IMG/VR virus record: IMGVR_UViG_3300019755_000008
Span: 1-41,548 of that record
Reading direction: 5' to 3' (one strand)
Source: a virus
Length of the DNA stretch: 41,548 nt
Shown here: in pieces, positions 1 to 41,548 of the stretch
Numbering within the stretch: position 1 is the first letter of the stretch
Layout of the letters: each line of letters begins with the position of its first letter
Notes under the pieces: model-generated
What the model was told of the DNA's origin: nothing
Seen by the model: the letters and a program-made list of their open reading frames with translations, nothing else
The model's database searches: none
Translations under genes and position numbers: made by a program

Positions 1-387
1 CAGACAGATTTTAAAATCGGCGTTTTTCATTTTAGAAAAAAGGCCCGAACTAGTCTGGGTATAGTCTGCCATTAAAGCCATCATTTTACCCATGTCCTCC
101 GTTTTCTTTTTACGGTCCATCGCCATATACGTAGCGCCTGTAGGTTCGTAAAAAGTAATAGGGTTAATATCCCCCCCAGCTCTTTGTGGAGTGAACACGG
201 GACACCCGGCTTCATTAACTGTCATAGCTCCAGACATAACCGCTTTTATGATACGTCTTTTAGCCTGTTCGAACCCTTTACGGTCCTCTTCGTCCATAAA
301 CGATGTATCGAAGTCTAAATCCATAGCCTCGCCGAAGCGTTCGAACTCCTGCTCTGCCATTTCTCTACTTATTTTATTTTCTGCCAT
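1..387 (-). CDS. Tail assembly chaperone, N-terminal part (Mu gp41-like; continues at 41548)
   Basis: The ORF starts with ATG at 387 behind AAGGAGTAAATT and stays open through base 1 (129 codons), so it is cut by the window edge. It lies directly after the tube gene in transcription order, where Mu-like phages encode the chaperone that coats the tape measure before tube assembly. The protein is acidic at the N-terminus, followed by a segment with ITFYEPTGATYMAMDR, a signature I associate with Mu-type tail assembly proteins. The reading frame at base 1 continues exactly into the frame of 41548-41354, giving a 193-residue protein if the molecule is circular. Function is inferred from position and motif. 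Confidence 0.75.
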   Translation of the reverse strand, partial: MAENKISREMAEQEFERFGEAMDLDFDTSFMDEEDRKGFEQAKRRIIKAVMSGAMTVNEAGCPVFTPQRAGGDINPITFYEPTGATYMAMDRKKKTEDMGKMMALMADYTQTSSGLFSKMKNADFKICL

Positions 388-397
388 AATTTACTCC

Positions 398-781
398 TTA
401 TTGCTTTGTAAGTTCGCCCGGTCCCATAAGTGACACGGCCGCCGTAGCGTTTTGGCTACTTGCTGATAATTCCCCAGTGATAATCGCTGTACCTTGGTAA
501 ACTGTCCCAGACGCATACGTAATCGATATCGCAAAATAATCTTTTGCATTAGATAGGTCCTGTAGAAACTCGTGGTCCCCTCTAGTATCATCTACCTCTA
601 CCGTAAGACCATCAATACTTAAAGGTACTCTAGTCTTAATAATACGCGCTGTACCGTTTCCATTAGCTTGTACCTCATTCTCAAACCCACCCAACTTACG
701 CTGAGCCTCCGCGTCTGCTGCTACTGCAAAGATACGACCCGATAACGAAATCGCCTCTATACTTCCGCCTACTCCTGCCAT
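398..781 (-). CDS. Tail tube protein (Mu gpM-like)
   Basis: 127 residues, the usual size for the Mu gpM tube family (PF10618 type). It forms the inner tube through which DNA passes after sheath contraction. The N-terminus with GGSIEAISLSGRIFAVAADAE and the middle part with KTRVPLSIDGLTVEVDD fit this family, and it follows the sheath gene by 17 nt, the invariant order in contractile phages. ATG is preceded by AAGGAGTAAATT. Sheath, tube and chaperone all carry this same Shine-Dalgarno type, consistent with high expression in one late transcript. Confidence 0.85.
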   Translation of the reverse strand: MAGVGGSIEAISLSGRIFAVAADAEAQRKLGGFENEVQANGNGTARIIKTRVPLSIDGLTVEVDDTRGDHEFLQDLSNAKDYFAISITYASGTVYQGTAIITGELSASSQNATAAVSLMGPGELTKQ

Positions 782-798
782 AATTTACTCCTTTTCTT

Positions 799-2301
799 TT
801 ACGCTACGACTGTAGCTGTACCGAAATAAAATCCGAAGTTTAAGTCTACAGAGATTATGTTCGTATTTCCGCTTAATTGCACAGTTAAAGCTATGTCTAG
901 CCTCTTAGGGTTTTGTTCGCTAATTTGAGCTAGTGTATTCTCTTTAGCTGTTTTAGGGTCGCTTATTATAGCATTTAATCCTAAGCTATCGATAAGAGCG
1001 TTCGCTGCTGCTACTGCCATTTTAGGCTGTTTAGCTTCCGAGTTAATTGTCGGTTGGTCGTCTGGGATTAACGGCGCACCATCCCACTCGTCCGTAGCAA
1101 AGATAAGATTTAAGTTAAAGATAATATTCTGTAACTTAACGATATCACATACATAACGGTACGCTGGACTAGGGTCGCCTGACGGGTGGTAAAATGTAAC
1201 CGTATCCGATATATTTATAACGCCGTCTTTAACTTCGATAGTCGAGCTACCTTTTTTAACCGCCACGTCTCTATCGACATAGGTCCACTGGTCCCCGTCG
1301 TCGCCTGGATTTAATGTGTCGGCGTCTTGGCTACCGTAGTCTCTAGGTGGGTTATTTTGTGCCACTTTAACAATACGCGCTAACTGACGAGCTGCAACTG
1401 CGAACGGTAAATCTTTAGAACCTGGCGCCACTAATTGCGAGTTCGTTCTATCTGTTTTACGCGTGTCTGACACTGCCGTAGCCGCGGTAACTGTTGTAGC
1501 GGTATTCCCTGTAAACACAATAAGGGGTTTACGAGTAAGTGCTCCCCAGCGTCCCTCCCCGAAATTTGAGAACTTATCCAGAGTCGTAGTGTCTGCAATT
1601 TCTAAACAGTTAAGGACCATAGTCTCCCATACATCCCCCACCTGAGTAAGTGCGTCGTCTACATCCGGATTAATAAGTCCCCCCGTAGGTTGTGTAATTG
1701 CGAAAGTAATCCCGCTGTTATCTACACTTGTAGCTACTACCTCGATAAATAGGTCGTTACCACTTGCGCCAGCCCACTTAGCCTCTAGCCCTACGTCTGT
1801 AGTGTTATCTGTAGCCGACATAGGTAAATTTAATGCCGCGTCTAAAGCTGCCGTCATAGCCGCCGTAATTGTAGCTACTGTATCGCCTGCCGCTACTGCG
1901 AACTGCTCCGACTGAATGTTATTAATGTTAATAACAAAAGACGCCGCCCCGGTTGCTGCACCGCTCGGAGTAATGTCTCCCGCGGAGGCTACACCTGACA
2001 CGTCGTCCTCCAAAGGATAAACCGTTACAGGGATTGTCCCTACTCCGTCTCCGTTAGTTGGTAATAGCTGTAAAGCTGCTAAATGTATCGGCGACCCAAA
2101 ACCGTATAACTGTGCGGCCTCTAAAGCGCTCGTTACCTGTCTTTTAGTTGTCCCGTAAACTGCTGAGGTAGACCCCTGCCCGACAATAGCCACACGTTGA
2201 GGTAAAAATAAAACCCCTCCGCCTCTTAAATCTTTAAAAGCCGTTTTAACTCCGACAACTCTAGCGACTGCTGAGAGGTCCACTGCTGTACTAACTGCCA
2301 T
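799..2301 (-). CDS. Contractile tail sheath protein
   Basis: 500 residues, the typical length for Mu gpL-like sheath proteins. It polymerises around the tube and contracts at infection. Visible features are a conserved N-terminal segment around GGGVLFLPQRVAIVGQGS and a C-terminal segment with LDIALTVQLSGNTNIISVDLNFGFYFG, where the beta-strand exchanged between sheath subunits lies in known sheaths. The centre is rich in Thr, Ala and Asp. It sits between the tail terminator and tube genes. This gene alone makes the phage a myovirus. Confidence 0.92.
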   Translation of the reverse strand: MAVSTAVDLSAVARVVGVKTAFKDLRGGGVLFLPQRVAIVGQGSTSAVYGTTKRQVTSALEAAQLYGFGSPIHLAALQLLPTNGDGVGTIPVTVYPLEDDVSGVASAGDITPSGAATGAASFVININNIQSEQFAVAAGDTVATITAAMTAALDAALNLPMSATDNTTDVGLEAKWAGASGNDLFIEVVATSVDNSGITFAITQPTGGLINPDVDDALTQVGDVWETMVLNCLEIADTTTLDKFSNFGEGRWGALTRKPLIVFTGNTATTVTAATAVSDTRKTDRTNSQLVAPGSKDLPFAVAARQLARIVKVAQNNPPRDYGSQDADTLNPGDDGDQWTYVDRDVAVKKGSSTIEVKDGVINISDTVTFYHPSGDPSPAYRYVCDIVKLQNIIFNLNLIFATDEWDGAPLIPDDQPTINSEAKQPKMAVAAANALIDSLGLNAIISDPKTAKENTLAQISEQNPKRLDIALTVQLSGNTNIISVDLNFGFYFGTATVVA

Positions 2302-2314
2302 CTAATACTCCTTA

Positions 2315-3725: not shown

Positions 3726-3735
3726 AATTTACCCC

Positions 3736-4815: not shown

Positions 4816-4828
4816 TTGTTACTCCTGT

Positions 4829-6269: not shown

Positions 6270-6278
6270 ATCATACTC

Positions 6279-7070: not shown

Positions 7071-7074
7071 TTTT

Positions 7075-8966: not shown

Positions 8967-9020
8967 ATGGGCCTCCCTATCGAAGTTTTATTAAATTCCC
9001 TAAGTATACCATAAATTTAT

Positions 9021-10985
9021 TTAAGTTTCGAAATAAATCGCCCCATTTTCTAAATAATCCCAGAATTGGTCCCAGTCTACTGTCTTTAATTGGAAGTATT
9101 GAATACAGATAGACCACGCTATAACCTCGATAGCCGCGTGTCCATAGACCAGTAAATCCCACAACTCATTACGGGCGTTACCTGGACGGTGCCAGTAGTA
9201 GCTAGTGTTACCGTTCGCGTCGGTTTTTTCCCTACGTGTCTCTACCGTAAGCTCTTTTAGGGCCTTATCCGGGAGGTCGATAGGTGCATTAAAGTGGTGG
9301 GCCTTTTGTATCCCCGCGTCTTCCGTCCATTCTCTACGCAGCACTGGCGCCAGGCGGTCTTTATAGTGGTCAACAGTAATCGTGTACCCCGTAGTCCCCG
9401 TCTGCGTTGTAAACTCCGAGAACTCCTTAACGCGATTTGATTTACCCGGACGGTCACGCCCTAAAACAGGTACAACTCCCGAGGCATAATCCGCGCAAAA
9501 AGATACGACTGTATCGTTAGCATAACCAGCGTCGATAAATGTCATTACCACACCATATCGCTTACCGTCGTCAGCTTCGTACCTACGCTCCTCTATAATC
9601 TCTCGCAGCTCGCCCCAGACTTTACTCGTAGACTCGCTGCAGTCCTCGTCTTCCAAACGTATATATTCAATAACATATGGCTTAGCGTCTCTCGCCCAGC
9701 CCATTACCGAAACCGCTAAAAAAGATTTATGTACGTCGACCTGGCACGTAAGTAACAGTATCGGACTCCCACTAAATTCTGTCGAGTATTTATTCGGTAT
9801 CTGCCCTAGCCTATAAGCAGGTCTACGGTGTAGTGATACCGTCGTAAATCTAATTTTAGAACCCATTACCTCGAACGGCTCGGCCAGGACGTTATTATAA
9901 AACACTTGATACTTAGAGATATCTTTTACCCTACGCTCTTCTGGGTCGTACCCTGCGAGATATGCGCCGACACTTTTAGACCAGGGCTGCATACCTATAG
10001 GCGAGTAAAGCGCGGGTAAATGATACGACCGTATCCCAGCCTCTACAGGTCTAGCGGTAGGCTCCCAGTGCGCGCCGTCCTCTTCCGAGAATAGCCGCTC
10101 TTTATCGTGCTCGAAATGTGGTTCTCCGCACTCTTTACAGCGGTACTGTACGGACTCGGGCAGTAGAATACCGCCGTCCGTCTCCCAGTAAAAGCCGCCT
10201 TTTTCATTTTCGCCATACGACCACCTCAACTCCTGGGGCGCATTACACTTTTTACAACGGACTTTATATTTTCGCTGGTCTCCTCTTAAAAATGCTTTTT
10301 GTATTTTAGACGAGCCTGTAATAAGCGGCGTAGAACCTCTAAAAATCTTACGACGTTCCCAGTAACCCGAACACCTATCATCTGACAGCGTGTCGGGGTC
10401 CCCGTCTTTACCCACAGTATCGGGCCAGGCGTCTATCTCGTCCTTAAGAAGTACTGCTATAGAGTAAGACCTCATTTTATCCGCGTTCTTAGCCCCGAAA
10501 GGTACTAGGTATCCACCGCCGGCCCATTGAATGTGGTTGGAAGTCTTACCCGTTTTACGACTATTACCCTCGTCGCTCGACTGAATTATGTCCCCGAAAC
10601 CGGACTGATTAATCATAGGTATAATATTATTCTCTATTCTGGCCGCTGCCAGCTCTTTATCCGCGGTCATATACATGCACGGGAGCGTCTTAACGTGCGC
10701 CATATAGTATAAAAGACCCGACTCCAGTAGTGTCGTGTAAGTAATCTGTACGCCTTTTTTAAGATTTACTTCCCTTACGTTAGAGTCTGCGTCGAAGCAG
10801 TTTATAATTTCGCGCATAAACGGGTTAACATCGTAGCGGATATATCCTGGCATAGACGTAACGGACTCCGGGAGGTACCTATGCTCCTCGTTAAACTTTG
10901 CGGGTGTAACTTTGTGTATTACTTCTGTTAGAGCGCCTACCTGGTCCATTAGCCATTCCTGGCCTATAGTTTTAATCGTCGACAT
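9021..10985 (-). CDS. Terminase large subunit (lambda gpA-like)
   Basis: 654 residues, as lambda gpA (641). ATPase: a Walker A-like region around KKGVQITYTT (76-85) and Walker B AVLLKDEID with D182/E183. A zinc-ribbon-like insert has C244, C247, C283 and C286. The nuclease domain shows CQVDVHKSF, VVMTFIDAGYAND and ARNELWDLL, carrying the acidic residues that bind metal. It translocates DNA into the prohead and cuts it at the packaging site. ATG 10985 overlaps the end of the small-subunit gene by 14 nt. gpA-type terminases usually make cohesive ends. Confidence 0.93.
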   Translation of the reverse strand: MSTIKTIGQEWLMDQVGALTEVIHKVTPAKFNEEHRYLPESVTSMPGYIRYDVNPFMREIINCFDADSNVREVNLKKGVQITYTTLLESGLLYYMAHVKTLPCMYMTADKELAAARIENNIIPMINQSGFGDIIQSSDEGNSRKTGKTSNHIQWAGGGYLVPFGAKNADKMRSYSIAVLLKDEIDAWPDTVGKDGDPDTLSDDRCSGYWERRKIFRGSTPLITGSSKIQKAFLRGDQRKYKVRCKKCNAPQELRWSYGENEKGGFYWETDGGILLPESVQYRCKECGEPHFEHDKERLFSEEDGAHWEPTARPVEAGIRSYHLPALYSPIGMQPWSKSVGAYLAGYDPEERRVKDISKYQVFYNNVLAEPFEVMGSKIRFTTVSLHRRPAYRLGQIPNKYSTEFSGSPILLLTCQVDVHKSFLAVSVMGWARDAKPYVIEYIRLEDEDCSESTSKVWGELREIIEERRYEADDGKRYGVVMTFIDAGYANDTVVSFCADYASGVVPVLGRDRPGKSNRVKEFSEFTTQTGTTGYTITVDHYKDRLAPVLRREWTEDAGIQKAHHFNAPIDLPDKALKELTVETRREKTDANGNTSYYWHRPGNARNELWDLLVYGHAAIEVIAWSICIQYFQLKTVDWDQFWDYLENGAIYFET

Positions 10986-11697: not shown

Positions 11698-11702
11698 GGC
11701 CA

Positions 11703-11716: not shown

Positions 11717-11743
11717 TTAGCTAAAGGTTTACTTTGGGGTTCA

Positions 11744-11825: not shown

Positions 11826-12347
11826 CTAAATGTTTTTATCCCTACGAAACTTCCTGCTCGCTAAGTTCTCCTGCTGTGTTACAAAGCTACAAGTCTTAGG
11901 GCTGTAGACTTTATTCCCTGGAGTAATTATATCTTTGTCTAGTTGGTAGCGTTTCCCATCTGTTGGGTAGTTCTCTTCGAACCATTCAGCGAACGTCTGG
12001 AAGTTGTGCCACTCTTCGGCTACCTTTCCTCCCTCATAAGACGGCTGGTGGTGTCGGCTTCCTCGGTAGTAACAGCGTCGTAACATAGCGCGCCATATGC
12101 TAAACGCTTTTGTATCGGCCCCCTCGGTGTGTGCCTTATGTTCCCCTACTCCGATACAGCCTACTCCGAACACGGTCTTAGCTAAAGGGTCGCGTATCCT
12201 CGGTCGGTCACTCCCGACTAACGTACGCTTAGCGGTCTTTACTATCGTACCAGTATCTAAAAAGGCTACCATCACGTTATTAGCGTTATGGTATTCGCAG
12301 ACTACTACTCCGCCGCAGTTTTGAGTCTTGAACTTCTGTCCGAACAT
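11826..12347 (-). CDS. HNH/homing-endonuclease-like protein
   Basis: 173 residues. The N-terminal module (MFGQKFKTQNCGGVVVCEYHNANNVMVAFLDTGT... RDPLAKTVFGVGCIG) followed by WRAMLRRCYYRG, EEWHNFQTFAEWFEENYP, LDKDII and KVYSPKTCSFVTQQEN is a layout I know from free-standing phage endonuclease genes related to HNH/AP2-type homing enzymes. A complete H-N-H triad is not clear. It has its own sigma70 promoter (12377-12405) and RBS (CAGGAGTTTAAT), and interrupts the late head genes, as expected of a selfish insertion. Confidence 0.6.
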   Translation of the reverse strand: MFGQKFKTQNCGGVVVCEYHNANNVMVAFLDTGTIVKTAKRTLVGSDRPRIRDPLAKTVFGVGCIGVGEHKAHTEGADTKAFSIWRAMLRRCYYRGSRHHQPSYEGGKVAEEWHNFQTFAEWFEENYPTDGKRYQLDKDIITPGNKVYSPKTCSFVTQQENLASRKFRRDKNI

Positions 12348-12376
12348 ATTAAACTCCTGTTATATTGTTTGACAGT

Positions 12377-14230: not shown

Positions 14231-14827
14231 ATGGAAAAGAAATATGAGTTAGATACCTCAGACGTTAAAGAGTTTTATGGTAGGAAATTATTTAGGGTAA
14301 TATCGTTAACTTCATTTTTAACGGTTTCGGTAGGTGATAAAGGTGGATATATAGAGTCTGAGAAAAACCTTAACCACGACGGGAACGCGTGGGTATATGG
14401 GAACGCGTGGGTATATGGGAACGCTAGGGTATCTGGGAACGCTAGGGTATCTGGGAACGCGTGGGTATATGGGAACGCTAGGGTATCTGGGAACGCGTGG
14501 GTATATGGGAACGCGGAGGTATCTGGGAACGCTAGGGTATCCGGGGACGCTAGGGTATCTGGGGACGCGGAGGTATCTGGGGACGCGGAGGTATCTGGGG
14601 ACGCGGAGGTAATGTGGGTTACAAAAATTGGAAGCTCAAAAAGTACGTTAACAGTGTTCCGAACTAAAGACGGGTATAACTTGGTAAGAGGCTGTTTTTT
14701 AGGTACCATGGAACAATTTAAGGACGCGGTATCAAAAAAAACCGATAGCGACAAAAGTAAAAAAGAGTATGAGCTGCTTATTCCAGTAATAGAATACCGA
14801 TTTAATAAGTACCTTACCAAGGAGTAA
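14231..14827 (+). CDS. Hexapeptide-repeat (beta-helix) phage protein
   Basis: 198 residues, RBS AAGGAGTAAGAT. Residues 1-50 form a globular cap (MEKKYELDTSDVKEFYGRKL, then KGGYIESEKNL). Residues 51-128 hold 13 six-residue repeats of the type G-N/D-A-x-V-x (GNAWVY, GNARVS, GDAEVS), expected to stack as a left-handed beta-helix. The C-terminal 70 residues are mixed and basic. Similar proteins with this cap plus repeats occur in many phages and prophages; their function is not known to me. The repeats are encoded by an 18-bp tandem array (14381-14614). Confidence 0.8.
   Translation: MEKKYELDTSDVKEFYGRKLFRVISLTSFLTVSVGDKGGYIESEKNLNHDGNAWVYGNAWVYGNARVSGNARVSGNAWVYGNARVSGNAWVYGNAEVSGNARVSGDARVSGDAEVSGDAEVSGDAEVMWVTKIGSSKSTLTVFRTKDGYNLVRGCFLGTMEQFKDAVSKKTDSDKSKKEYELLIPVIEYRFNKYLTKE
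14381..14614 (+). repeat. 18-bp tandem repeat array (13 units) in the beta-helix gene
   Basis: About 13 units of GGGAACGCGTGGGTATAT and variants. Variation is confined mainly to the Trp/Arg/Glu codon, the Tyr/Ser codon and Asn/Asp. Three unit types (W-Y, R-S, E-S) alternate, and identical units sit next to each other, which points to recent duplication by slippage or recombination. Unit length is a multiple of 3, so copy number can change without frameshift. Confidence 0.9.
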
Positions 14828-15357: not shown

Positions 15358-15434
15358 ATACATGTAACTCAGCCGGGTAGAGCGCTGGTTTGTGGTACCA
15401 GAGGTCGGAGGTTCGACTCCCTCTAGGCGTGCCA
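15358..15434 (+). tRNA. tRNA-His(GTG)-like, degenerate
   Basis: The anticodon arm is perfect: CTGGT, loop TTGTGGT with GTG at 15392-15394, ACCAG. A D-arm (ACTCAGCCGGGTAGAGC) and T-loop TTCGACT are clear, and CCA is encoded (15432-15434). Defects: the T-stem has an A-C mismatch, the 5' acceptor strand ATACATG pairs poorly with TAGGCGT (two mismatches, two G-U), and the base before CCA is G, not the C73 usual for bacterial tRNA-His. So it may be a decayed tRNA, a tRNA 3' fragment, or a structured RNA. A covariance-model scan would decide. Confidence 0.5.
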
Positions 15435-15589: not shown

Positions 15590-18187
15590 CTAACGCCCGA
15601 ATACTTCTTTAGCCGCACCATTAACCGGGTCAGACTGTGCGTCGATATACGCTTTAGCTGCGTCCGACGCGCTATGGATACCGGCGCTTATGTGTCCTTT
15701 ACGGATATATAATCTCGGTTTCTTATGGTCGTCCAGGGCGATAGGGTTATTAACTCTACCGTCTGAGAGCGCAGGGTGCCAGTCGTAACCTAACTGTCTT
15801 AAAATCTCCCTACGTTTATTATGCGATATCTTAGCAGCCGAGCGCGTATGCTGCAGCAGTTTATCCAGGGCCACAGACGACACCCAGCCACCAGCGAACC
15901 CGGGGCGACCCTCTTCAATAGCTTCGATAATATCCTGCTCGACACCACCTAACGACGACGTAATAGCCTCACGGGTAGACGATGTCTCCGGCGCCCTATG
16001 ACATTTACCGGCAGGGTTAAGCTCTTCTGGTATTGTGTAAGTACTGAGGAGCTCATTAACTATTGCATACCCGCCGTTATTTAACCAGCTATATAGTTCT
16101 GGGAAGTAATCACCGTCCATACCGTCTCGCACCAGGTCGTCCGCCGTCTGCTGTGCGGTATAGAACATGGCGAAACGTCGGTCCCCGTGAGTCTTACGGA
16201 TAGCGTCTTTATGATTAGAGTTAAGCATAAAATTAGCGCATAGGTCCGCAGTTACTTGCGAGTGCTGCATAGCACGTTTAGCCAGCTTATTATTAGTAAT
16301 CATAGGCTTAAGAACTTCAATAACTTCTTTTTTATGGTCTGCTACGTAGACATCTTCTACACCTATAAATAGCTTACCGAATAGCCACTCGTTAAACTTC
16401 TCCGATATCTCGTTCGCTGGCGGAAAATGTGTGTATTTATCTCCGATAGCGAAAGCCACACAACGGGTTAACAGAGTTTTGCCGTTACCCTCTGTACCTT
16501 GGATAAGTGGCGTCCACTGAAACTTAACGCCCTTATGTTGCACACATGCTGCCATATAAGAGAGAAGTATATCCCGGTCTCGAGTATCTGGTAGTAATTT
16601 GCTGAGGTGCGCCATAAATGGCTGGATATCTCCCTGCTGACGTTGAGTCGTTATTGGTACGTAAGAATTAACCTCTTTATGGCCGTCTACGTCCACTATC
16701 GCCCCGGGTTGTAAGTCTGGGCGAAAGCAGCTAGTCTCTGCCTTTGGATATCTGATTATCTGTGACTCTGTAAACGCCTCCCACGCCTTACGAGTAACTT
16801 TATCTCCCGACTCGTCCATCTGGAACACATAACCTCCATAGGTGGCGTTAAACTGCTCCGCTTTAAGTTGTGCGCCTTTAGGAGTTAGGACTCGGTGTGT
16901 CTCTTGAACATATACACAGCCTTTAAAGTGTTCGAGTTGCTGTTCCGCTGCCAGGTATTGAAATCCTGTAACTATTGTAGGCTGTGTCGAAGCACCTAAC
17001 GGGTCGCACGCCTGCTCTACTGGGGTAACCATAGCCGCGATATCTGCCGCTGACTGTGACTCGTTATCTATCCACGTCCTAGCTGCGGGTATCTTAGCCA
17101 GTTTTAGAGATAACGCCCTATCGTGCTGTACCTCTGCCAGTTTACGGGAACGGATAGACTCGGCGTATTCTCTCTGTTTATCAGACGACGCTCTTAGCTT
17201 ACACGCGCCTAGCTTGTCGGCTAGAGTTGTGTCTATCTGCCCACCTGTAGAGTAGACGGCTGTCTGCATACCTACAGCTCTCGTAATAGTACGAATGAGG
17301 TAGTCTTCTCTGTCCCACTTCTCGCGTACTAGAGCCGACATTTTCATAATTCTATCTATACGCTCGCAGTTCTTACCGGTCCAGAACGCTAAATGCTGTG
17401 CCAGGGCAGCGTCGGCACTCGAGCCGTCGTAAGTTCTGTGTCCCTCATTATCTGGGTAAGCTGCCGCCAATGCGTCGTCGTTAGCTGTAAATAGGTCCGC
17501 GAAGGTAGCACGCCCACCAAATACAGCCCCCGCACTCGACGACTCGATAGCTTTAGTAATTAACTCCTCGTCGCTCTCTGGCCCGTTGTATTCTGGTACG
17601 GGCTCGGTGGTCCACTCTGAGATGTCGGCCTGTTTTTTCGGGAAATAGTCGTTAACTAACTGCGTCAGGGCTACCGTACTGTCTACCGACGCGTCTCCGA
17701 TAGCGTTCGTACCAGTTAAAGCCACGAAACGCCCCTCGGTATACAGCTCGATATTAAGTGGTATATTTTTACTAGCGTGTTCTGGTAGTTTACCTACCCC
17801 GAAAATATGTAACCCCCGCCCAGACTGTGAAACCTCAACGGCTGCACCAGCTAAACGAGTCATAAGGTCATTAGCTAAAGGCGACCACATGTTATCTGGT
17901 TGTAGACATTTATCTATATCCAGGAAGTAGAACGGGTCGTTAGGTGTAAATAAATACCCCACGCCGTATCCCTCAGGTAACTGTGCAAGTAAAGCCGCTA
18001 CCTCTTCATACATTACAGTACTGCTAGCGTCCTGCTGCCAGTTGCTACCTTTAGGGAATACCTGCACAGTACGTGGGTTTAATGGTATTTTGTTATGTTT
18101 TTTCTTAGTCTCGTCCCATACCAGCTTATAGAGTAAAAACTGAGGGTATGTGGTCAACGGCTTAAGAGCCTCTGGTAATGTAAACAT
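15590..18187 (-). CDS. Primase-polymerase (AEP) fused to helicase
   Basis: 865 residues. N-terminal archaeo-eukaryotic primase fold: FLDID with D90/D92, SGRGLH with S122/H127, and ELYTEGRFVALTG (147-159) as the third catalytic strand. A linker of about 350 residues follows. The C-terminal helicase has Walker A GTEGNGKT (564-571), Walker B LFIGVEDV (606-613) and a sensor region HGDRRFAM, as in DUF5906/D5-type phage helicases. The whole resembles phage NrS-1-type primase-polymerases that start DNA synthesis without a separate primase. Last gene of replication operon 1, 2 nt after the double-HTH gene. Confidence 0.85.
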   Translation of the reverse strand: MFTLPEALKPLTTYPQFLLYKLVWDETKKKHNKIPLNPRTVQVFPKGSNWQQDASSTVMYEEVAALLAQLPEGYGVGYLFTPNDPFYFLDIDKCLQPDNMWSPLANDLMTRLAGAAVEVSQSGRGLHIFGVGKLPEHASKNIPLNIELYTEGRFVALTGTNAIGDASVDSTVALTQLVNDYFPKKQADISEWTTEPVPEYNGPESDEELITKAIESSSAGAVFGGRATFADLFTANDDALAAAYPDNEGHRTYDGSSADAALAQHLAFWTGKNCERIDRIMKMSALVREKWDREDYLIRTITRAVGMQTAVYSTGGQIDTTLADKLGACKLRASSDKQREYAESIRSRKLAEVQHDRALSLKLAKIPAARTWIDNESQSAADIAAMVTPVEQACDPLGASTQPTIVTGFQYLAAEQQLEHFKGCVYVQETHRVLTPKGAQLKAEQFNATYGGYVFQMDESGDKVTRKAWEAFTESQIIRYPKAETSCFRPDLQPGAIVDVDGHKEVNSYVPITTQRQQGDIQPFMAHLSKLLPDTRDRDILLSYMAACVQHKGVKFQWTPLIQGTEGNGKTLLTRCVAFAIGDKYTHFPPANEISEKFNEWLFGKLFIGVEDVYVADHKKEVIEVLKPMITNNKLAKRAMQHSQVTADLCANFMLNSNHKDAIRKTHGDRRFAMFYTAQQTADDLVRDGMDGDYFPELYSWLNNGGYAIVNELLSTYTIPEELNPAGKCHRAPETSSTREAITSSLGGVEQDIIEAIEEGRPGFAGGWVSSVALDKLLQHTRSAAKISHNKRREILRQLGYDWHPALSDGRVNNPIALDDHKKPRLYIRKGHISAGIHSASDAAKAYIDAQSDPVNGAAKEVFGR

Positions 18188-18189: not shown

Positions 18190-18690
18190 TTATAACTCTG
18201 CTAAGTATGCTACGGCTTTGTATTTAAGCTCTTTAGGGGCTTGAATAGCTATCGGGTCCCTATTCGTTAATCCTTGCGCTATAATCTCTGGTACCTCTTG
18301 CTTAACTGCGGTTTTTAGGATTACCACCTGCAGCGCTTTGATACTTTTAAAATAGTGAGAGATTAACCCAGGCGATACATTAGCTTTCTTAGCAATATCC
18401 CCTCGGGTAACTTGGTTATATCCTTTAGTCTTCGCCAGTTCGATAGCAACTTCTAAAACGTACTTACGTCTTAAAGTCGGGTTAACACGCTTACGGTCTA
18501 CAGTGTCCCCGATAGGAGCACCCTCTAGTCTATCGATAAACTCCGTAAAACTTTCGTCCATAACGTCATAGAACGAACCATCCGAGATATTAGCTCTAGC
18601 GCATACCTCCGCTCGTGTGATATTGATTAACCCGCGCTCGGCGGCTAATTCTCTCGCCACCTGTTCGATAAGTTGCTTTTTATTTTCCAT
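18190..18690 (-). CDS. Double helix-turn-helix (TetR_N-like) DNA-binding protein
   Basis: 166 residues with two tandem TetR-type HTH units: ITRAEVCARANISDGSFYDV (24-43) and VTRGDIAKKANVSPGLISHY (94-113), each with a preceding helix (QVARELAAERG, EVAIELAKTKG). No TetR ligand-binding domain, so one chain may bind a two-part site alone. RBS AAGGGGAC precedes ATG 18690, which overlaps the end of the upstream small gene by 11 nt. Encoded directly upstream of the primase gene and downstream of the promoter/operator at 18845-18873; regulator or origin-binding protein are both possible. Confidence 0.7.
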   Translation of the reverse strand: MENKKQLIEQVARELAAERGLINITRAEVCARANISDGSFYDVMDESFTEFIDRLEGAPIGDTVDRKRVNPTLRRKYVLEVAIELAKTKGYNQVTRGDIAKKANVSPGLISHYFKSIKALQVVILKTAVKQEVPEIIAQGLTNRDPIAIQAPKELKYKAVAYLAEL

Positions 18691-19091: not shown

Positions 19092-19793
19092 TTAATACCC
19101 CCTATACATGAATAACTTTTCGGTAGCCTTTTTAGCCCCCGTATCTTTTGTTAAACTCGAGTTAACTTCTTTTTGCCAGATAGGAACGAAGTCGTAAGGC
19201 GCGTTATATTCTGAAATAAAAACGGTATGGCCTTTTTTAGCCATAATCCTACACCACTCCCAGAATTTATCGTGGTCGAAATTATCTTTATATTTAGTAG
19301 CGCCGGCGTAAGGCAGGTCACAGTATATCATACTCCTATCGGGAATATCTAACCCGTCATAACTACAGTTCACTAACTTAACATTTTTTAGAAGAGGACT
19401 TTGTTTAATCGCACTTCTGTAGCTTTCAGCTACATAATCTCTTTTTCCTGCCCGGTCTCTACGCCAGCCCCCTAGCCATTTCCCAGAATAACTAAAAGCA
19501 AAACCAGCGTAACTTTTTAGAGGGTTTTTATCAGATTTATGTAGCTCTAAGTACATAGCCTCCGTAAATTCCGTATTATTTTTAGGTAAATTTACAGCGT
19601 TATCACGTATATAGGTTAAAGCCTCTATTACGTACGGGTTTAAATCAGCACCTATCCTAGACCCGTCGATTTTATCTATCATATTACCACCCCCGACGAA
19701 AGGCTCTACCCAGGTCTGCCCTGGTTTACGCTCGGCTAGCATAATCGGAGCTATCTCTTTAGCTATCCTGTTTTTACTACCCATATATTTCAT
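19092..19793 (-). CDS. DNA N6-adenine methyltransferase (D12/Dam family)
   Basis: 233 residues. SAM-binding motif EPFVGGGN (30-37) with MKYMGSKNRIA at the N-terminus, GADLNPYVIEAL (48-59), the central target-recognition region with FAFSYSGKWLGGW, and a catalytic motif read as IYCDLPYAGATKY (156-168). This family normally has DPPY; here Pro160 is replaced by Leu (GAC CTG CCT TAC), a one-base change. The rest of the motif, including the following T-x-Y, is intact. It may methylate phage DNA against host restriction, but the phage has no GATC, so a Dam specificity would have no target here. ATG overlaps the VRR-NUC stop by 4 nt. Confidence 0.85.
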   Translation of the reverse strand: MKYMGSKNRIAKEIAPIMLAERKPGQTWVEPFVGGGNMIDKIDGSRIGADLNPYVIEALTYIRDNAVNLPKNNTEFTEAMYLELHKSDKNPLKSYAGFAFSYSGKWLGGWRRDRAGKRDYVAESYRSAIKQSPLLKNVKLVNCSYDGLDIPDRSMIYCDLPYAGATKYKDNFDHDKFWEWCRIMAKKGHTVFISEYNAPYDFVPIWQKEVNSSLTKDTGAKKATEKLFMYRGY

Positions 19794-20266
19794 AACGTCC
19801 CCTCCCCATTAGCGAAACAGGCGTCCCCACCCATACTCGCGATTAACTCCGCCCACCGTAACTGGGCCTCCTCTCGCTCAGTACCACGGTATCTCCACCC
19901 CGCGGCTTTAACTTCACGACTTACGAACTGTCCTATAACTTTACCGACGTGGTGTGGTTCGATTAATACCGGACGGATACCTATAAGGTCGTGCGACTTT
20001 ATGTGGTCATTCATTTGCTTACTATCATTAGCCAGGCCATATCGTAAGAACGAACCCTCCTCGGTATATGTTCCACCCACATTGTTACGCCACAATCTCA
20101 CGCCGTTACGGCTAGCCTCCAGGCGTATACGTGTCTGGATAGCTGCTTCGCTCTCTCCAGGTAAAGTCTTAGGGTCTGGCGTCTGGCTTGCGAGCGTGTC
20201 CTGTAGGTCTTTGATAGCTTCGGGAGATATCCCCCAGCGGTTCGCCCATTCTGTTATAAGAGTCAT
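19790..20266 (-). CDS. VRR-NUC domain nuclease
   Basis: 158 residues. PD-(D/E)XK signature of the VRR-NUC family: acidic-Gln pair in ESEAAIQTRI (38-46), LWRNNVG, SHDLIGIRP with D93, and SREVKAAGWRY with E118 and K120. The family cuts branched or single-stranded DNA and is common in phage replication modules. A helical N-terminal extension (1-35) precedes it. It overlaps both neighbours by 4 nt. Confidence 0.8.
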   Translation of the reverse strand: MTLITEWANRWGISPEAIKDLQDTLASQTPDPKTLPGESEAAIQTRIRLEASRNGVRLWRNNVGGTYTEEGSFLRYGLANDSKQMNDHIKSHDLIGIRPVLIEPHHVGKVIGQFVSREVKAAGWRYRGTEREEAQLRWAELIASMGGDACFANGEGTL

Positions 20267-28708: not shown

Positions 28709-30703
28709 ATGTCACAAAAATTAACTAACGGAGAAATAAGAGGCGAGGTAGTTTACAGACGTACCTACTCGAGACCAAAAGAGGGCGGCGGGTTCGAAAC
28801 TTGGCCGGAAACTGTAGAGCGTGTAATTAGCCATCAAGCGTGGCTATGGGAGAGAGCAGCCGGCAGAGCGTTAAAACCACACGAACTTAGCGAACTGGAT
28901 GAGCTGCGTACTCTTATGCTAGAGAAAAAGATATCGACTAGCGGCCGTACTTTATGGCTAGGCGGTACCGACACAGCTAAAGACCGCGAGAGTTCTATGT
29001 TTAACTGCTCATTTACAAATGTAGAGACCGTTTACGACATAGTAGATGTACAGTGGTTACTACTCCAGGGCTGCGGTGTAGGCTTCCGTCCTATCATAGG
29101 TATACTTAACGGGTTCTTTAGGCCTATCGATAAAATAGAGGTTATCCGTTCTAAGAAAACGCTAGGGCCTAACGGGGAGTTCAAAAAAGGAAGAGAACAC
29201 AACGTCGAGACATTTAAAGACGGAGTATGGGCTATCTCAGTAGGAGACTCGGCCGAAGCCTGGGCGAAAGCTATCGGGAAACTTATCGCAGGTAAATACA
29301 ACGCTAGTAAGTTAGTGTTCGACTTCTCAGGGATTAGACCGTCGGGAGTTAGACTTAAAGGTTACGGCTGGATATCGTCTGGAGACGAGGCTATCTCGGT
29401 AGCATATGTAGCAATAGCTAATATTATGAACCGTAAAGCCGGGCAGCTTTTAAGCCGTATAGATATCCTGGATATAATTAACCATATGGGAACTATTTTA
29501 TCGTCGAGACGCTCGGCAGAGATAGCTCTATTTGAATATGGTGAGCCTGAGTGGGAAGAGTTTGCAGTAGCTAAAAAAGACTACTTTATAAACAATATGC
29601 AGCGTGAACAGTCTAATAATTCCCTGGTGTTCAGAGCGAAACCTGCTAGAGACGAACTGGTTAAACTATTCGACGTTATGGCGGACGCCGGAGGAAGTGA
29701 GCCCGGGTTTATTAATGCAGAGACCGCGCTAAAACGTGCGCCGTGGTTCCAGGGAGTTAATCCGTGCGCGGAGATACTTCTAGGTAATAAGTCGTTCTGT
29801 AACTTAACAGAGGTAGACCTGGCGAAATTCAAAGGCGACACGGTAGGACTTACTAGAGCTATGGAACTGGCAGCACGCGCTAACTATAGACAGACCTTAG
29901 TAAATCTAAAAGACGGCGTACTCCAGGAAGCCTGGCACCTTAATAACGAGTTCCTAAGACTTTGTGGTGTTGGATTAACGGGTATCGCTAGACGTGACGA
30001 TATGACGGAATACGATTTTAAACAGTTGCAGCACGTAACGACCTCAGCCGCTTATAGTATGGCCGACGAGTTAAGACTACAGCGCCCTAAAAATGTAACC
30101 ACAGTTAAGCCGTCGGGTACTCTTAGTAAGTTAATGGGTACGACTGAGGGTGTACATAAGCCTCTAGGTAAATACATTTTTAATAATATTAACTTTGGGA
30201 AACACGACCCCCTAATCGGTAAACTAAGAGCAGCAGGATATAACGTTTTTGATAATCCGAACGACTCGAACGCTATTTTAGTAACTTTCCCAGTAGCGTG
30301 GGAGGATGTACCGTTTACGAAAGTAGAAACGGTCCACGGTATAGTCGAAATTAACACAGAGACCGCTGTAGAACAGCTAGAGAGATACAAAAAGATACAG
30401 ACTGGCTATGCACAGCAGAATGTCTCTATAACGGTCTCATACTCGCCGGGAGAGGTAGACACTATTATCGACTGGCTACTAGCTAACTGGGATATCTACG
30501 TGGGAGTAAGTTTCTTATACAGAGCTGACCCGAGTAAAACTGCTGAGGACCTGGGCTACAGGTACCTACCGCAGGAGGTAGTAACTAAAGAGAAATTCGA
30601 GGCATACATGGCAGCACTTAAACCTGTAGACTTTACAGATACGGACAGTTACGAAGAGCTAGAAGACGCCGAGTGTGCTAGTGGGGCGTGCCCGGTAAAG
30701 TAG
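28709..30703 (+). CDS. nrdJ: B12-dependent ribonucleotide reductase, class II, monomeric
   Basis: 664 residues. Key residues match the Lactobacillus-type ribonucleoside-triphosphate reductase in spacing: C100 (FNCSF) and C364 (SFCNL) as the redox pair, N351-P-C353-A-E355 with C353 as thiyl radical site and E355, and a C-terminal pair C656/C661 (CASGAC) that re-reduces the active site. STSGRTLWLGGTD and GCGVGF are also as in this family. It reduces NTPs to dNTPs with adenosylcobalamin and needs no oxygen or second subunit. No intein is visible. Confidence 0.92.
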   Translation: MSQKLTNGEIRGEVVYRRTYSRPKEGGGFETWPETVERVISHQAWLWERAAGRALKPHELSELDELRTLMLEKKISTSGRTLWLGGTDTAKDRESSMFNCSFTNVETVYDIVDVQWLLLQGCGVGFRPIIGILNGFFRPIDKIEVIRSKKTLGPNGEFKKGREHNVETFKDGVWAISVGDSAEAWAKAIGKLIAGKYNASKLVFDFSGIRPSGVRLKGYGWISSGDEAISVAYVAIANIMNRKAGQLLSRIDILDIINHMGTILSSRRSAEIALFEYGEPEWEEFAVAKKDYFINNMQREQSNNSLVFRAKPARDELVKLFDVMADAGGSEPGFINAETALKRAPWFQGVNPCAEILLGNKSFCNLTEVDLAKFKGDTVGLTRAMELAARANYRQTLVNLKDGVLQEAWHLNNEFLRLCGVGLTGIARRDDMTEYDFKQLQHVTTSAAYSMADELRLQRPKNVTTVKPSGTLSKLMGTTEGVHKPLGKYIFNNINFGKHDPLIGKLRAAGYNVFDNPNDSNAILVTFPVAWEDVPFTKVETVHGIVEINTETAVEQLERYKKIQTGYAQQNVSITVSYSPGEVDTIIDWLLANWDIYVGVSFLYRADPSKTAEDLGYRYLPQEVVTKEKFEAYMAALKPVDFTDTDSYEELEDAECASGACPVK

Positions 30704-30708
30704 TAGAC

Positions 30709-30746: not shown

Positions 30747-30792
30747 CTCCGAAATATTCGGGAAATATAAATTATTTTAAGGAGATAAACTT

Positions 30793-31523: not shown

Positions 31524-31525
31524 AG

Positions 31526-31924: not shown

Positions 31925-31934
31925 TTCTTACTCC

Positions 31935-32494: not shown

Positions 32495-32497
32495 TTC

Positions 32498-32815: not shown

Positions 32816-32825
32816 GGTTTATCCC

Positions 32826-33194: not shown

Positions 33195-33206
33195 AGTTTA
33201 ATCCTT

Positions 33207-34109
33207 TTATCTTAATTCAATCCAAATAGTTACACTACTGTTTACTACGGTAGCTTTATATGTAGAGCCGTTAGGTATTATCGCCTGCACACTATTACTA
33301 TAAGAAGCCGGTGAAGTTGTCCTAGAACAGTTAGGCACACCGTCTATCTCAACGGATATATTATTTGTAGCAGCAGCCGAAGTCCCATATAGCGAGACCC
33401 AAATAGGTTTACCTGTCGTATTCGTGTATGTTACATTTAGTACCCTACTACCTGTTACATCTTGATAAGTTTGGCCCATACCTAATATAGTACTGTTAAT
33501 ACCTAACGGCGTTATGACTTTTTCGTTATTTGTCCCGGTTCTAATTTCCGCAGCTGTAGCGACTTCCCTACCGGAACTACCCGCGAAGTCGTTAAAGTTA
33601 GTAACATCTGTCCCGTCACTTACTAGGACCGCGCTCCCCCCCGCTAAAACCGCAACGCCAGAACCGCCCGAAACTTTAACCGTAAGAGTTTGTAACGTTG
33701 AGTTCGTAAATATTAAAATACGCCCCACGTCGTCGATAATAATATCACGACCCGCACTTAGCATCACGCCAGTATCGGTTATCTCTAGCTTAGCGTAGAG
33801 GTTCTGGCCTGTTGTAAGTGTGTAGTTAGCGTCCGCCGTAATGTTATGCACTGCCGAACGAACGTTTAATAATTTCCACATAGCGTCGAACTGCTGCGAG
33901 GCTGTAGCGTTATCGGGTGTACCTGACGGCGTAATCCCCGCTTTAGAAGTGATAAACTGCTGGAACCCGAAAAGGTCGTTAACCAGTTTAGCCTCCCACG
34001 GTGTACCCGTCCCGTCTCCTGGCGACGTAATGTTTTGAGCTTTACCGTCCGGATACTCCGAACTTACCGGCGCTACTTTGCCCGGATATGCGTCTATGGG
34101 TCTAATCAT
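33207..34109 (-). CDS. Tail fibre protein
   Basis: 300 residues. The N-terminus (YPGKVAPVSSEYPDGKAQN, GDGTGTPWEAKLVNDLFGFQQF, AGITPSG) is the baseplate-attaching part seen in Mu/P2-type fibres. The middle has Gly/Thr/Val-rich strands, and the last 90 residues (QTYQDVTGSRVLNVTYTNTTGKPIWVSLYG) form a receptor-binding-like tip. It is short for a fibre, so the host contact may be a stubby spike. RBS AGGAGTAATTT. Confidence 0.8.
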   Translation of the reverse strand: MIRPIDAYPGKVAPVSSEYPDGKAQNITSPGDGTGTPWEAKLVNDLFGFQQFITSKAGITPSGTPDNATASQQFDAMWKLLNVRSAVHNITADANYTLTTGQNLYAKLEITDTGVMLSAGRDIIIDDVGRILIFTNSTLQTLTVKVSGGSGVAVLAGGSAVLVSDGTDVTNFNDFAGSSGREVATAAEIRTGTNNEKVITPLGINSTILGMGQTYQDVTGSRVLNVTYTNTTGKPIWVSLYGTSAAATNNISVEIDGVPNCSRTTSPASYSNSVQAIIPNGSTYKATVVNSSVTIWIELR

Positions 34110-34118
34110 AAATTACTC

Positions 34119-34937: not shown

Positions 34938-36133
34938 AAGTAAATTACCTCTCCGAGTTTAGCTTTTTCTCCTATACCTAAAGTATAAAGGTCTACCAGA
35001 GCAGTAGTTCCCTCTAAGTAGATAAAAGCGTTCGTAAATACTCCACCCGCAGCCGTAACCACGTCGTCCACAACTCCCGAGACCGACGCTTTAGTGATAC
35101 GGTCTTTACGGGGAGGCACCGATAGACCTATAATAAACGGCTCTCTATCTAGGAAAAACTCCGTAAGTGCTGTCTCTATATCCGCCCTAACTTGCGCCAG
35201 GTCGTCGGCCACTAAGCCTGATACCCTAACGTCGAAGCCCGTACGCGTAATCCCGAAAGCGTTTACTAAAGCATTCGCTGGTCTACGTGTAGCTAGCCCA
35301 CTCTGGTCTAAGTCGATAGAGACTAGGACAGCCTCGAGCTGAGCCGTCGTAGGAATGCCATCCGCGTTCCCCGAGCTTGCCACTGTGGCTTCCGCATAGA
35401 CGTCGACCTGCCCCGGGTTAGTGCTTGTATACGGATAAATGTTAACAATACCCGCCGTCTCTTCGCCCCACTGTTCATAGTCAGCGTATGCTCCGCCCTG
35501 CGGTCTCTTTTGAAACCTGTCGACGATACGCTGACGGTAAACCTCGAAGTCTTCCGCGTCTGCACCTGTAACCGTTTGAGATATAACCTCGGTGTCCCTA
35601 GCCACATTAGCCAGAGGGTTAGCGAACGAGATTATCGCTCCCGCCGTTAAGTTTCCTATCGTTCCAGCACCTCCGCCGCCAGCCTGGTCGGCTGCGGCTC
35701 TTACTGTTACCTGCTTAGTCACAGCGTCTAACGCTATAGAACCAATAGTTATATACGTTACGCCGTTCGTAGCTGTAAGCTGCGTCCCAGAAGGTAGCGT
35801 ACCCGTTTGGTTCTCGACTGTTATTTCCACAAGTAGCTCGGCCTGTGTAGCCCCTACCGGGTCTCCAATACCTATAAGTCTACCCCATTCTATAAGGGGA
35901 GTAAGTATCTTACCATTAATAACCGTCTGTTTAGTGCTGGCCGTACTTACGAAAATCTGTAAGAACGTAAAGCCACCGTATTTGTAAAGTAATATAAAAA
36001 CTCCCGCCAGAGCTTTAGCTAGTACACGGATAAACGACTTAGGTAAAAGCGGGATAGTTTGGTTTAGAGAGGCGCTTATCTGTGATACGATATTATCGCT
36101 TATCTCTTGTATAGTTGGCGTTTGTAAACTCAC
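34934..36133 (-). CDS. Baseplate J-like protein (Mu gp47-like)
   Basis: 399 residues. It begins with TIQEISDNIVSQISASLNQTIPLLPKSF; the centre has the typical RQRIVDRFQKRPQGGAYADYEQW and GIVNIYPYTSTNPGQVDVYAEA, and VDLYTLGIGEKAKLGEVIYL at the end. This matches baseplate_J proteins (PF04865), the structural wedge conserved in all contractile systems. Confidence 0.9.
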   Translation of the reverse strand: MSLQTPTIQEISDNIVSQISASLNQTIPLLPKSFIRVLAKALAGVFILLYKYGGFTFLQIFVSTASTKQTVINGKILTPLIEWGRLIGIGDPVGATQAELLVEITVENQTGTLPSGTQLTATNGVTYITIGSIALDAVTKQVTVRAAADQAGGGGAGTIGNLTAGAIISFANPLANVARDTEVISQTVTGADAEDFEVYRQRIVDRFQKRPQGGAYADYEQWGEETAGIVNIYPYTSTNPGQVDVYAEATVASSGNADGIPTTAQLEAVLVSIDLDQSGLATRRPANALVNAFGITRTGFDVRVSGLVADDLAQVRADIETALTEFFLDREPFIIGLSVPPRKDRITKASVSGVVDDVVTAAGGVFTNAFIYLEGTTALVDLYTLGIGEKAKLGEVIYL

Positions 36134-36558: not shown

Positions 36559-36569
36559 AGTTTACTCCT

Positions 36570-38290: not shown

Positions 38291-39518
38291 AATATACCAC
38301 CTCTTTACCTTTTGGAAGCTCTAATATTTCCGAGCCGCTAAAATCGTTACTATCGATTAAGAAGTCCAGCTTATCATCTACACTACCGTAAAGCTCTGCC
38401 GTTAAATCCACGATAGTACGAGCGCGGTCTAGGATTATTCTACGCTCTTGCTTTAGTGAGAACGATATCTCAACTAAGAACCCTGCCGTAAGAGCTACAG
38501 CGTTCTGGAGTTGCTGGTACGCTGCTCCTGTGTCTATCGCTTCCAGTTCTGTGAGGTTCGCGTCTTTCCAGGTGCTTACTTCGTCGAACTGTTCTAACAC
38601 TGCCGCTGCTGCCTCGATAGCGTCTGCGCGCGTCTCGAATTGATTATTAACAGTCGATAGTACAGACCCAGTAACATATGTCGCCGCGTATAAATCTTTA
38701 GTATAAAAGTCGATAGGGTCTGCGCTTATGCTAGTCTCGCCGTCTGCGTCTGATATAAGAGATGTAGCCAGGTTTTTATATGCGTCCAGTTTAGCCGTAA
38801 TTAATGAGAACGCCCTAGCTGGTGCCTGGATAAGTTGCATAGTCTGAAACGCTAACGTAAGCGGTTGTCCGATTAACACGTCAATACCGCGATTAATCGA
38901 GTCATTAATGGCCTTAAATTCCGCCCGTACCTCTGCGACTGTATCAGCTACCACACCAAGGCCGCCCTCTACGTCGTCTAAAAAGATGTCATATTTATTT
39001 TTAAAGGTAGCTTTTTTAACGGCCGTATCTAAATTAATATTTTCTTCGAACTCTGCCGCCTGCGAGCTATTGAACGCCTCGACTGCTGCTACGACTTCAC
39101 TCGCGGGGTCGTTCTGTGCGCTCGGATAAATAAGTCCAATAGTAGACATAAACGTAACTTCTATTATAGCCTGGTTTCCGGCTGTCTTAAGGTCGTCTCG
39201 TCTCGTAATATTTCCCGTAGGTACTACATCCACAGTTCCGTAGATAGGGTGCTCCAGTTTCCCAGCCCCGACTTCAAAGAGTGCAGCGTCGAACGCGTCC
39301 GCCTCTAGGTCATAATTTGCGCCCCAGAATATGCAGAGTAACGGAAACATACGCCCGTCGCTTCCGTTCGGCTGCACATATGTACCGTCCGCGTCCGGGA
39401 ACCCGAAGTTAGCTGTCCTTTTATTACGCGAGTTACTTACATTCTCGAACTCGAACGTATAACGGTCGCCTGACGGGGAGATATACGCCGCCTCTTTTAA
39501 TCTGTCAGTCCACGACAT
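38283..39518 (-). CDS. DNA circularisation-type baseplate protein (Mu gp43-like)
   Basis: 411 residues. It starts MSWTDRLKEAAYISPSGDRYTFEFENV, followed by DVVPTGNITRRDDLKTAGNQAIIEVTF, the signature of the DNA_circ_N family (PF07157) named after Mu gpN. Despite the name, it is a tail/baseplate component between tape measure and hub. The C-terminal two thirds are helical. It overlaps the hub gene by 8 nt. Confidence 0.88.
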   Translation of the reverse strand: MSWTDRLKEAAYISPSGDRYTFEFENVSNSRNKRTANFGFPDADGTYVQPNGSDGRMFPLLCIFWGANYDLEADAFDAALFEVGAGKLEHPIYGTVDVVPTGNITRRDDLKTAGNQAIIEVTFMSTIGLIYPSAQNDPASEVVAAVEAFNSSQAAEFEENINLDTAVKKATFKNKYDIFLDDVEGGLGVVADTVAEVRAEFKAINDSINRGIDVLIGQPLTLAFQTMQLIQAPARAFSLITAKLDAYKNLATSLISDADGETSISADPIDFYTKDLYAATYVTGSVLSTVNNQFETRADAIEAAAAVLEQFDEVSTWKDANLTELEAIDTGAAYQQLQNAVALTAGFLVEISFSLKQERRIILDRARTIVDLTAELYGSVDDKLDFLIDSNDFSGSEILELPKGKEVVYYV

Positions 39519-39520
39519 AT

Positions 39521-41350
39521 CTAAAACCCTCCTGTCTGTTGTAATTTAAGGCTAGGTCCCATACTAGAGTTAGTTACCTGAGCGCTACCTGTACGGTCTG
39601 CGATAGTTATTTCCGCCGACGTCTTTTTCTCTTCGATATTACGCGCGATACGTTCCTGCGGGCTTACCATTTGACTAGCTGGCTGAGCCGCGAGTTTAGC
39701 TTCGTCTCTTCCGAACCCGAAAAACCCTTTAATACCTGCGCCTATGTTGGAAACTTTGTCTCCGATAGCCCCCGTTACGTCTGGGATACTGATATCTGTA
39801 ATAGCTCCGATATTATCTTTAACCCATTTTATAGCTTTTATTAAAAGCCCCATAGGTGCTAATATAGCCTGGATGATACCAGGTAATGAGTCAAAGCCAG
39901 CCGCAACATCGTCAATCCATACTACTAGCGCGGTAAAGCCTGCTATAAGTGCGGCTATCCCCAGGACTATAAGTCCGATAGGGTTCATAGCTAAAACTAG
40001 ATTAACCGCTGTCATAGTTAGGACGAATGTCTTTAGGACTGTTGTAAGTGCTATAAACACGCCTAGGGCTATTCCTATTCGTTTACCCCAGGTTACTATC
40101 GACTCGAAGTTATCTATAATCATTTTAAGGAACCTGCCTATATTAGACGCGATAAGTTGTCCGTTAGCCCTAACCCAATCTGTCATACGGTCGACTACTT
40201 CGCTCAGTGGCCCTTGGTTCATTGAAAAAATAGAGATTTTAACGCCCTCTACTGCTGACATAAGACTTTTTAGTCTACCCTGTAAAGTATCTCGCATAGC
40301 TGCCGCCATTTTAGAGGCTGCGCCCCCAGAAGCTTCTAGCTCTCCTCGGTAGGCCTTAAGTTGCTTTTCTCCGGCGTTCATTAAAACGTTAACTCCAGCG
40401 ATAGCTTCCATACCGAAAACAGACTGTAAGGCTGCCGCTTTTTGAGCTGCCCCCATACCTTTAGTAGCTTTATTAAACTGCCCTATAACCTGGGTAATAT
40501 CTCGTAAGCTGCCGTCCTGGTTTGTAAGCTGAATACCTAGTCTCTTAATAGTTTTAGCTGCGGCACCCGTAGGCGCCTGTAAACGTATGAACATATTTTT
40601 AAGAACTGTACCCGCTTTACCACCTTTAATACCTGCGTTAGCTAGTTCTCCCGTCAGCGCTGCGAACGTTTCCATAGACGCTCCGGCTGCCGTAGCAACT
40701 GGCCCCCCCTCTTTAATTGTATCGAACATGAGTTCGACGGTAGTATTCGCGCTAGTTGTGGTTTTTGCGATAAGGTCGTTAACCCTAGCTAGGTTCTTAC
40801 CTAACTGGGCCGAGTCTTTAGTCATAAGCCCGAACGCCCCTAGGGAGTCAGACGCTACATCTGTAGCTGTTGCTAGGTCGACCTGTGCCGCGGTAGCTAA
40901 ATCCACAACTCCTGGAAGCGCGGAAACTGCCGCCTCTGCGTCGAACCCTGCCATAGCTAAGAAGTTAAGAGCCTCAGCTGCCTGAGAGGCTGAGTATTCA
41001 GTGGAAGCCCCCGTCTTACGTGCTGCGTCTTCTAGCATTTTAAAAGCCGGCGTACCCTTTTTTACTTCGCCAGGAAACTTTGCTGCTGCGTTTACGAGAG
41101 TCTGCTCGAACTGTGCCCCCGTGTTGATAATATCGGCCATGGCAATGGAAACCGTCCCCAGAGCTGCAGCACTGTACGCCGCGCCTCTTTTTATGCCATC
41201 GCCGAGTCTATCCATATTTTTATTAACACGGTATAACCCCCTCTCCATAGAGCGGGTCATTTTTCCGACTTTATTCTGCATACGCGTAACTGGAGCGCTA
41301 ACGCGGTCTATTGCTTTAAAAACTGCTTCCACTGAAAAACGTCCAGCCAT
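39521..41350 (-). CDS. Tail tape measure protein
   Basis: 609 residues. N-terminal helices (VEAVFKAIDRVSAPVTRM) lead into the TP901-type core (GAQFEQTLVNAAAKFPG, LNFLAMAGFDAEAAVSALPGVVDLA, GIKGGKAGTVLKNMFIRLQAP, LQSVFGMEAIAGVNVLMN). Two hydrophobic segments lie at 424-447 and 450-478, then a flexible tail with IPDVTGAIGDKVSN. By the usual scaling of about 0.15 nm per residue it suggests a tail near 90 nm. ATG 41350 follows AAAGGATAAAAA. Confidence 0.92.
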   Translation of the reverse strand: MAGRFSVEAVFKAIDRVSAPVTRMQNKVGKMTRSMERGLYRVNKNMDRLGDGIKRGAAYSAAALGTVSIAMADIINTGAQFEQTLVNAAAKFPGEVKKGTPAFKMLEDAARKTGASTEYSASQAAEALNFLAMAGFDAEAAVSALPGVVDLATAAQVDLATATDVASDSLGAFGLMTKDSAQLGKNLARVNDLIAKTTTSANTTVELMFDTIKEGGPVATAAGASMETFAALTGELANAGIKGGKAGTVLKNMFIRLQAPTGAAAKTIKRLGIQLTNQDGSLRDITQVIGQFNKATKGMGAAQKAAALQSVFGMEAIAGVNVLMNAGEKQLKAYRGELEASGGAASKMAAAMRDTLQGRLKSLMSAVEGVKISIFSMNQGPLSEVVDRMTDWVRANGQLIASNIGRFLKMIIDNFESIVTWGKRIGIALGVFIALTTVLKTFVLTMTAVNLVLAMNPIGLIVLGIAALIAGFTALVVWIDDVAAGFDSLPGIIQAILAPMGLLIKAIKWVKDNIGAITDISIPDVTGAIGDKVSNIGAGIKGFFGFGRDEAKLAAQPASQMVSPQERIARNIEEKKTSAEITIADRTGSAQVTNSSMGPSLKLQQTGGF

Positions 41351-41353
41351 TTT

Positions 41354-41548
41354 TTATCCTTTCGGTTTTGTATGTTCCTTTAGCTCTGGCCTTAAGCCAT
41401 TGTAAAAGAAGCGTATCTCCGAAGCGCTAAGAGTTCTAACGTCCGGTAATCCCGGGTAATCCCGGGTAATTTGGAGGAGCATTTCCGCGTAAACAGGTCC
41501 CGCCCTATGCTCTCCTTTAACGAACTTATCGTCCGCCCCGTATCTAAC
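41354..41548 (-). CDS. Tail assembly chaperone, C-terminal part (joins 387-1)
   Basis: 64 codons plus TAA (41356-41354), open to the window end. The end TLSASEIRFFYNGLRPELKEHTKPKG is helical and resembles the C-terminal part of Mu-type tail assembly proteins. It ends 3 nt before the tape measure ATG. Joined with 1-387 it gives a 193-residue ORF with no stop or frame change at the junction. In many phages the two parts are linked by a programmed frameshift; here they lie in one frame. Confidence 0.75.
   Translation of the reverse strand, partial: VRYGADDKFVKGEHRAGPVYAEMLLQITRDYPGLPDVRTLSASEIRFFYNGLRPELKEHTKPKG
41443..41470. repeat. 10-bp direct repeat in chaperone gene
   Basis: Minus strand: ATTACCCGGG twice in a row, then ATTACCGG. 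The unit length is not a multiple of 3, so gain or loss of one unit would shift the frame in the C-terminal part of the chaperone, 84 nt before its stop. Confidence 0.85.

Follow-up and report, generated by a model that had tools for sequence, protein, structure and literature searches.

How a phage genome can come to lack one short DNA word entirely, and what selected for the loss, is the question raised by an IMG/VR virus record of 41,548 bases (the window, i.e., the whole stretch of DNA that was analysed). The window derives from a contractile-tailed phage and contains 46 ORFs covering 93% of the sequence. The proteins found in it include terminase, portal, sheath, tape measure, baseplate, primase, polymerase, helicase, exonuclease, and ribonucleotide reductase; the window proteins that were searched yielded no integrase. 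Its terminase is related to 79 loci in viral contigs and, at more than 60% identity, to the terminases of two cultured phages, Shewanella phage SppYZU01 (74%) and Acinetobacter phage Scuro (66%). Two routes to the host were abandoned: the genome collection yielded two contigs only (Nitrospinota and Shimia bins), with terminases just 64% identical, and the matches of the ribonucleotide reductase were mixed and not decisive. Features of the window are collected in Table 1.

Table 1 Features of the window referred to in the text, with their coordinates and conservation
Feature	Coordinates	Strand	Remark
Terminase large subunit	9021..10985	-	Query for the comparison with relatives and for the tree
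HNH endonuclease	11826..12347	-	Lacking in the other GATC-free relatives that were compared
Protein with YdcK-type beta-solenoid repeats	14231-14827	+	Without counterpart in the relatives compared
tRNA-His (gtg)	15358-15434	+	Sole tRNA gene
Remaining CCTTC site	17501..17505	-	One of two
Protein with TetR-type DNA-binding domain	18190-18690	-	Kept in most relatives
D12-class adenine-N6 DNA methyltransferase (predicted)	19092..19793	-	PF02086, 43.7 bits (gathering threshold 22), N-terminal part of the profile only; motif IV is DLPY (83 homologues: DPPY 73, DIPY 10, DLPY 0)
Endonuclease (phrog_93)	19790..20266	-	Conserved across relatives, whether GATC-free or not
Ribonucleotide reductase	28709-30703	+	Closest phage matches annotated as adenosylcobalamin-dependent (class II); essentially missing from 20 relatives compared
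Remaining GCATC site	33761..33765	+	Sole one left
Remaining CCTTC site	35790..35794	-	Other of two

An earlier note, made from the sequence alone, had reported that GATC is missing, and a direct count on both strands of the window bears this out: there are no copies. Because expected counts vary with the null model, at least two nulls were used. Dinucleotide shuffles (n = 100) predict a mean of 102 copies (sd 8.6), synonymous-codon shuffles of the 46 ORFs (n = 400) a mean of 102.9 with a minimum of 82, and a trinucleotide-based Markov model 74. The figure of about 160 given in the note was thus too high, although its conclusion holds regardless. A specific short word lies far below what both composition and codon usage predict, as restriction-site avoidance entails. 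Among the 4-base palindromes, GATC alone is absent, CATG is partly depleted (27 versus 63 expected), and the rest are near normal. The window holds 1,775 tetramers one substitution away from GATC, so that new sites are expected to arise steadily and to need removal. The tetramer TATA, despite a z-score of -13 in the trinucleotide model, was rejected as a case of site avoidance, as 281 copies are still present.

The lack of GATC is upheld through silent codon choice in intact reading frames. Whenever an aspartate codon precedes C, it is GAC (136 of 136) and never GAT, a codon used 262 times elsewhere. None of the 149 isoleucine codons that follow G is ATC, compared with 193 of 621 isoleucine codons elsewhere, and after codons ending in GA serine is encoded by AGY in all ten cases and by TCN in none. 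Loss through synonymous changes is the second hallmark of restriction-site avoidance.

The same note had taken GATC to be the single target of counter-selection. The counter-selection is real, but its scope was drawn too narrowly: a scan of all 4-, 5-, and 6-mers, in which the lowest of several expectations was taken, uncovered at least three further purged words. GAWTC (GAATC/GATTC) is absent, against 57 copies expected from a first-order model and a codon-shuffle mean of 50; CCTTC/GAAGG is present twice (76 and 60 expected, respectively) and GCATC/GATGC once (39 and 56). The sister word GASTC is normal (66 versus 63 expected), and hence what was purged is GAWTC, not GANTC as a whole. We take the four words to match the specificities of DpnII (GATC), TfiI (GAWTC), HpyAV (CCTTC), and SfaNI (GCATC). 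CTGAAG and TCTAGA, with zero copies each, and several other 6-mers were left unclaimed, because their expected counts are small or because they follow from a paucity of CA/TG where codons meet, which many relatives display as well. Across the whole window, CAA/TTG and TCA/TGA are under-represented and GATA/TATC is abundant (604 versus 378); this bias is common to many relatives, with or without GATC.

Among the relatives, the ratio of observed to expected GATC is strongly bimodal. On a terminase tree of 81 rows, a quick one with some weak branches, the GATC-eliminated state requires at least five changes; several of the relatives are fragments. The window itself has a near neighbour, L006 (terminase 84% identical), which contains 58 GATC against about 40 expected. 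None of the 51 L006 sites alignable to the window is kept, compared with 37% of all tetramers and with 333 of the 887 other tetramers in which every base occurs once. Full loss of GATC is also seen from G019 to G002 (0 of 21 and 0 of 26 sites kept) and from G013 to SppYZU01 (0 of 27).

Within the window's clade, the words are lost and regained separately. CCTTC is gone in all members whose length permits a judgement (the window and L002-L007). GATC is gone in the window, L002-L004, and L007 and present in L005 and L006; GAWTC is gone in the window, L002, L004, and L006 and present in L005 and L007; GCATC is gone in the window and L007 and present in L006. L007 has also lost GGATG. A single degenerate enzyme responsible for all four words is ruled out, since L006 and L007 separate them.

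Farther relatives have purged other words, many of which presumably correspond to known Type II specificities: CTAG (0 of 39 expected in L083), ACGT (4 of 57 in L084), CCGG (1 of 32 in G021), CCWGG (0 of 25 and 0 of 21 in G015 and G035), and both CCTTC and CCAGC in G040. In Acinetobacter phage Scuro (L086, L088), GGATC is completely lost (0 of 70 expected) and CCAGC nearly so (4 of 60); GATC persists in other contexts and as a whole stands at 0.41 of expected; this is the pattern of a 5-base asymmetric word being lost. The group adjoining SppYZU01 (G013; L117-L119) lacks a 6-base word, GATCGC (0 of 27 expected), and retains about half of the expected GATC. At the opposite extreme within the same terminase family, GATC is 2.9-fold over-represented in G026 (L107, L108; 294 versus 102).

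Changing host Type II restriction-modification systems very probably selected these losses, and external restriction is the simplest common cause for them. The absences, their synonymous mode, and the turnover of words among lineages are observed directly; which enzymes the hosts carried, and that these acted on the phage, we infer. For GATC, the likeliest agent would be an enzyme that cuts unmethylated GATC at entry (DpnII/MboI/Sau3AI-like); GAWTC, CCTTC, and GCATC would each have been targeted by a separate enzyme of that specificity. Each site would raise the odds of cutting, so that silent mutants with fewer sites would win until almost none were left, and a shift of the lineage to hosts with other enzymes would change the set of purged words. 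In a published survey, site elimination was found in 7.1% of Type II site-genome pairs and in less than 0.5% for other types, and less frequently in temperate phages (PMC6286503); a review reports the same trend for virulent phages (PMC12707154). Counting against this reading, two of the purged words are asymmetric, and the survey stresses orthodox Type II sites (PMC6286503). Of the causes proposed in the earlier note, host restriction of GATC is the best supported, and avoidance of Dam, SeqA, or MutH is disfavoured as a sufficient one.

The latter explanation, already put forward for enterobacterial phages, holds that GATC disappeared in escape from methylation by the host's Dam, from SeqA, or from cutting by MutH, the other words having a separate cause; we consider it unlikely. 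Vibrio, Aeromonas, Pseudoalteromonas, and Shewanella hosts are usually considered Dam+. Those of their phages compared here contain GATC at 0.58 to 1.94 of expected, with SppYZU01 of Shewanella as the sole exception (2 of 118, or 0.02); two of them, 1/41 and phiV208, entered the comparison through their methyltransferase and not through their terminase, and some of the records were covered in part. Normal or raised GATC in most of these phages indicates that Dam, MutH, and SeqA are not sufficient causes. Nor is GATC the only word lost: GAWTC, CCTTC, and GCATC, which have no link to Dam, were purged in the same genome and switch alike. A precedent for the Dam-related explanation is offered by phiX174, which is GATC-free and whose mutation rate is reduced when sites are restored (PMC5014478); the near-absence of GATC from SppYZU01 speaks for it too.

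We consider it quite improbable that the losses go back to certain hosts whose methyl-dependent enzymes (DpnI-type, Type IIM/IV) cut GATC that had been Dam-methylated in other hosts and so selected GATC-free phages, although for GATC alone such an enzyme may have been at work. Although GATC is under expectation in 46 of 46 phages of hosts with methyl-dependent enzymes (PMC6286503), DpnI-type cutting leaves the loss of GAWTC, CCTTC, and GCATC unexplained.

That a nuclease or methyltransferase of the phage itself makes its GATC harmful or useless is suggested by the D12 methyltransferase and two endonuclease genes encoded in the window, but is highly improbable given their distribution. The methyltransferase scores 47.5 bits against the NCBIfam dam model, under the cut-off of 114.85, which does not support assignment as Dam. 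Among the relatives, the gene is found in the window and G009 only, other complete GATC-free relatives being without it, and carriers elsewhere span everything from absence of GATC to over-representation; hence it does not track GATC loss. The phrog_93 endonuclease is kept regardless of GATC, including in GATC-rich relatives, and is therefore not the driver. More generally, no gene of the window is common to the GATC-free relatives and missing from the others among the relatives compared. A family search gave no match to DpnII; the corresponding DpnI search, silent even in its control genomes, carries no weight. A phage Dam (PF05869) was likewise rejected, as it occurs only in G015, whose GATC is normal. 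Finally, composition, codon bias, or an assembly artefact, in favour of which there is nothing beyond a general codon-junction bias, can be dismissed, because removal is synonymous within intact reading frames, codon-context counts refute it, codon shuffles never fall below 82 GATC, and the loss recurs in independent contigs and in a phage isolated in culture.

At least 90% of the expected GATC has gone from 13 of 64 contigs with a related terminase and from 11 of 68 contigs of other phages (contigs within these samples are not mutually independent), and no other 4-base palindrome is eliminated as often in either sample. Zero GATC alone is therefore common, occurring in about one in five or six. 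Phage escape from restriction by word loss is known as well; the interesting part is the set of four words and its switching between close relatives, and our literature search returned nothing useful naming this set. To us the evidence is evenly poised as to whether the eliminated words form a readable record of the restriction repertoire that each phage lineage recently met, rewritten so fast within the clade that whole words distinguish phages with about 77% DNA identity. If they do, word loss alone would suffice to infer the restriction repertoires of hosts, and in part the hosts themselves, so that host restriction specificities would become predictable for phages known only from metagenomes. 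The clade is also a clean natural experiment in phage-host conflict: its close relatives differ in the words purged, so that how fast and in what order sites are lost and regained can be measured.

Three known systems bear comparison. phiX174 likewise has zero GATC, against about 20 expected (PMC5014478), but that phage, of 5.4 kb, infects Dam+ E. coli and its lack of sites is discussed in terms of mismatch-repair avoidance, whereas the window spans 41.5 kb and has lost unrelated words too. SppYZU01 (KY622015) resembles the window in its terminase, in sharing most structural and replication genes, and in its 2 of 118 expected GATC; unlike the window, it has kept CCTTC (98 versus 83 expected) and GAWTC (57 versus 64), and other, longer words are low. 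The closest parallel is restriction-site avoidance in non-temperate dsDNA phages, in which Type II words undergo near-complete silent loss (Rusinov et al. 2018, PMC6286503), as the probable Type II words of the window have done; here, by contrast, four words were lost together, and the set switches between relatives with terminases 84-88% identical.
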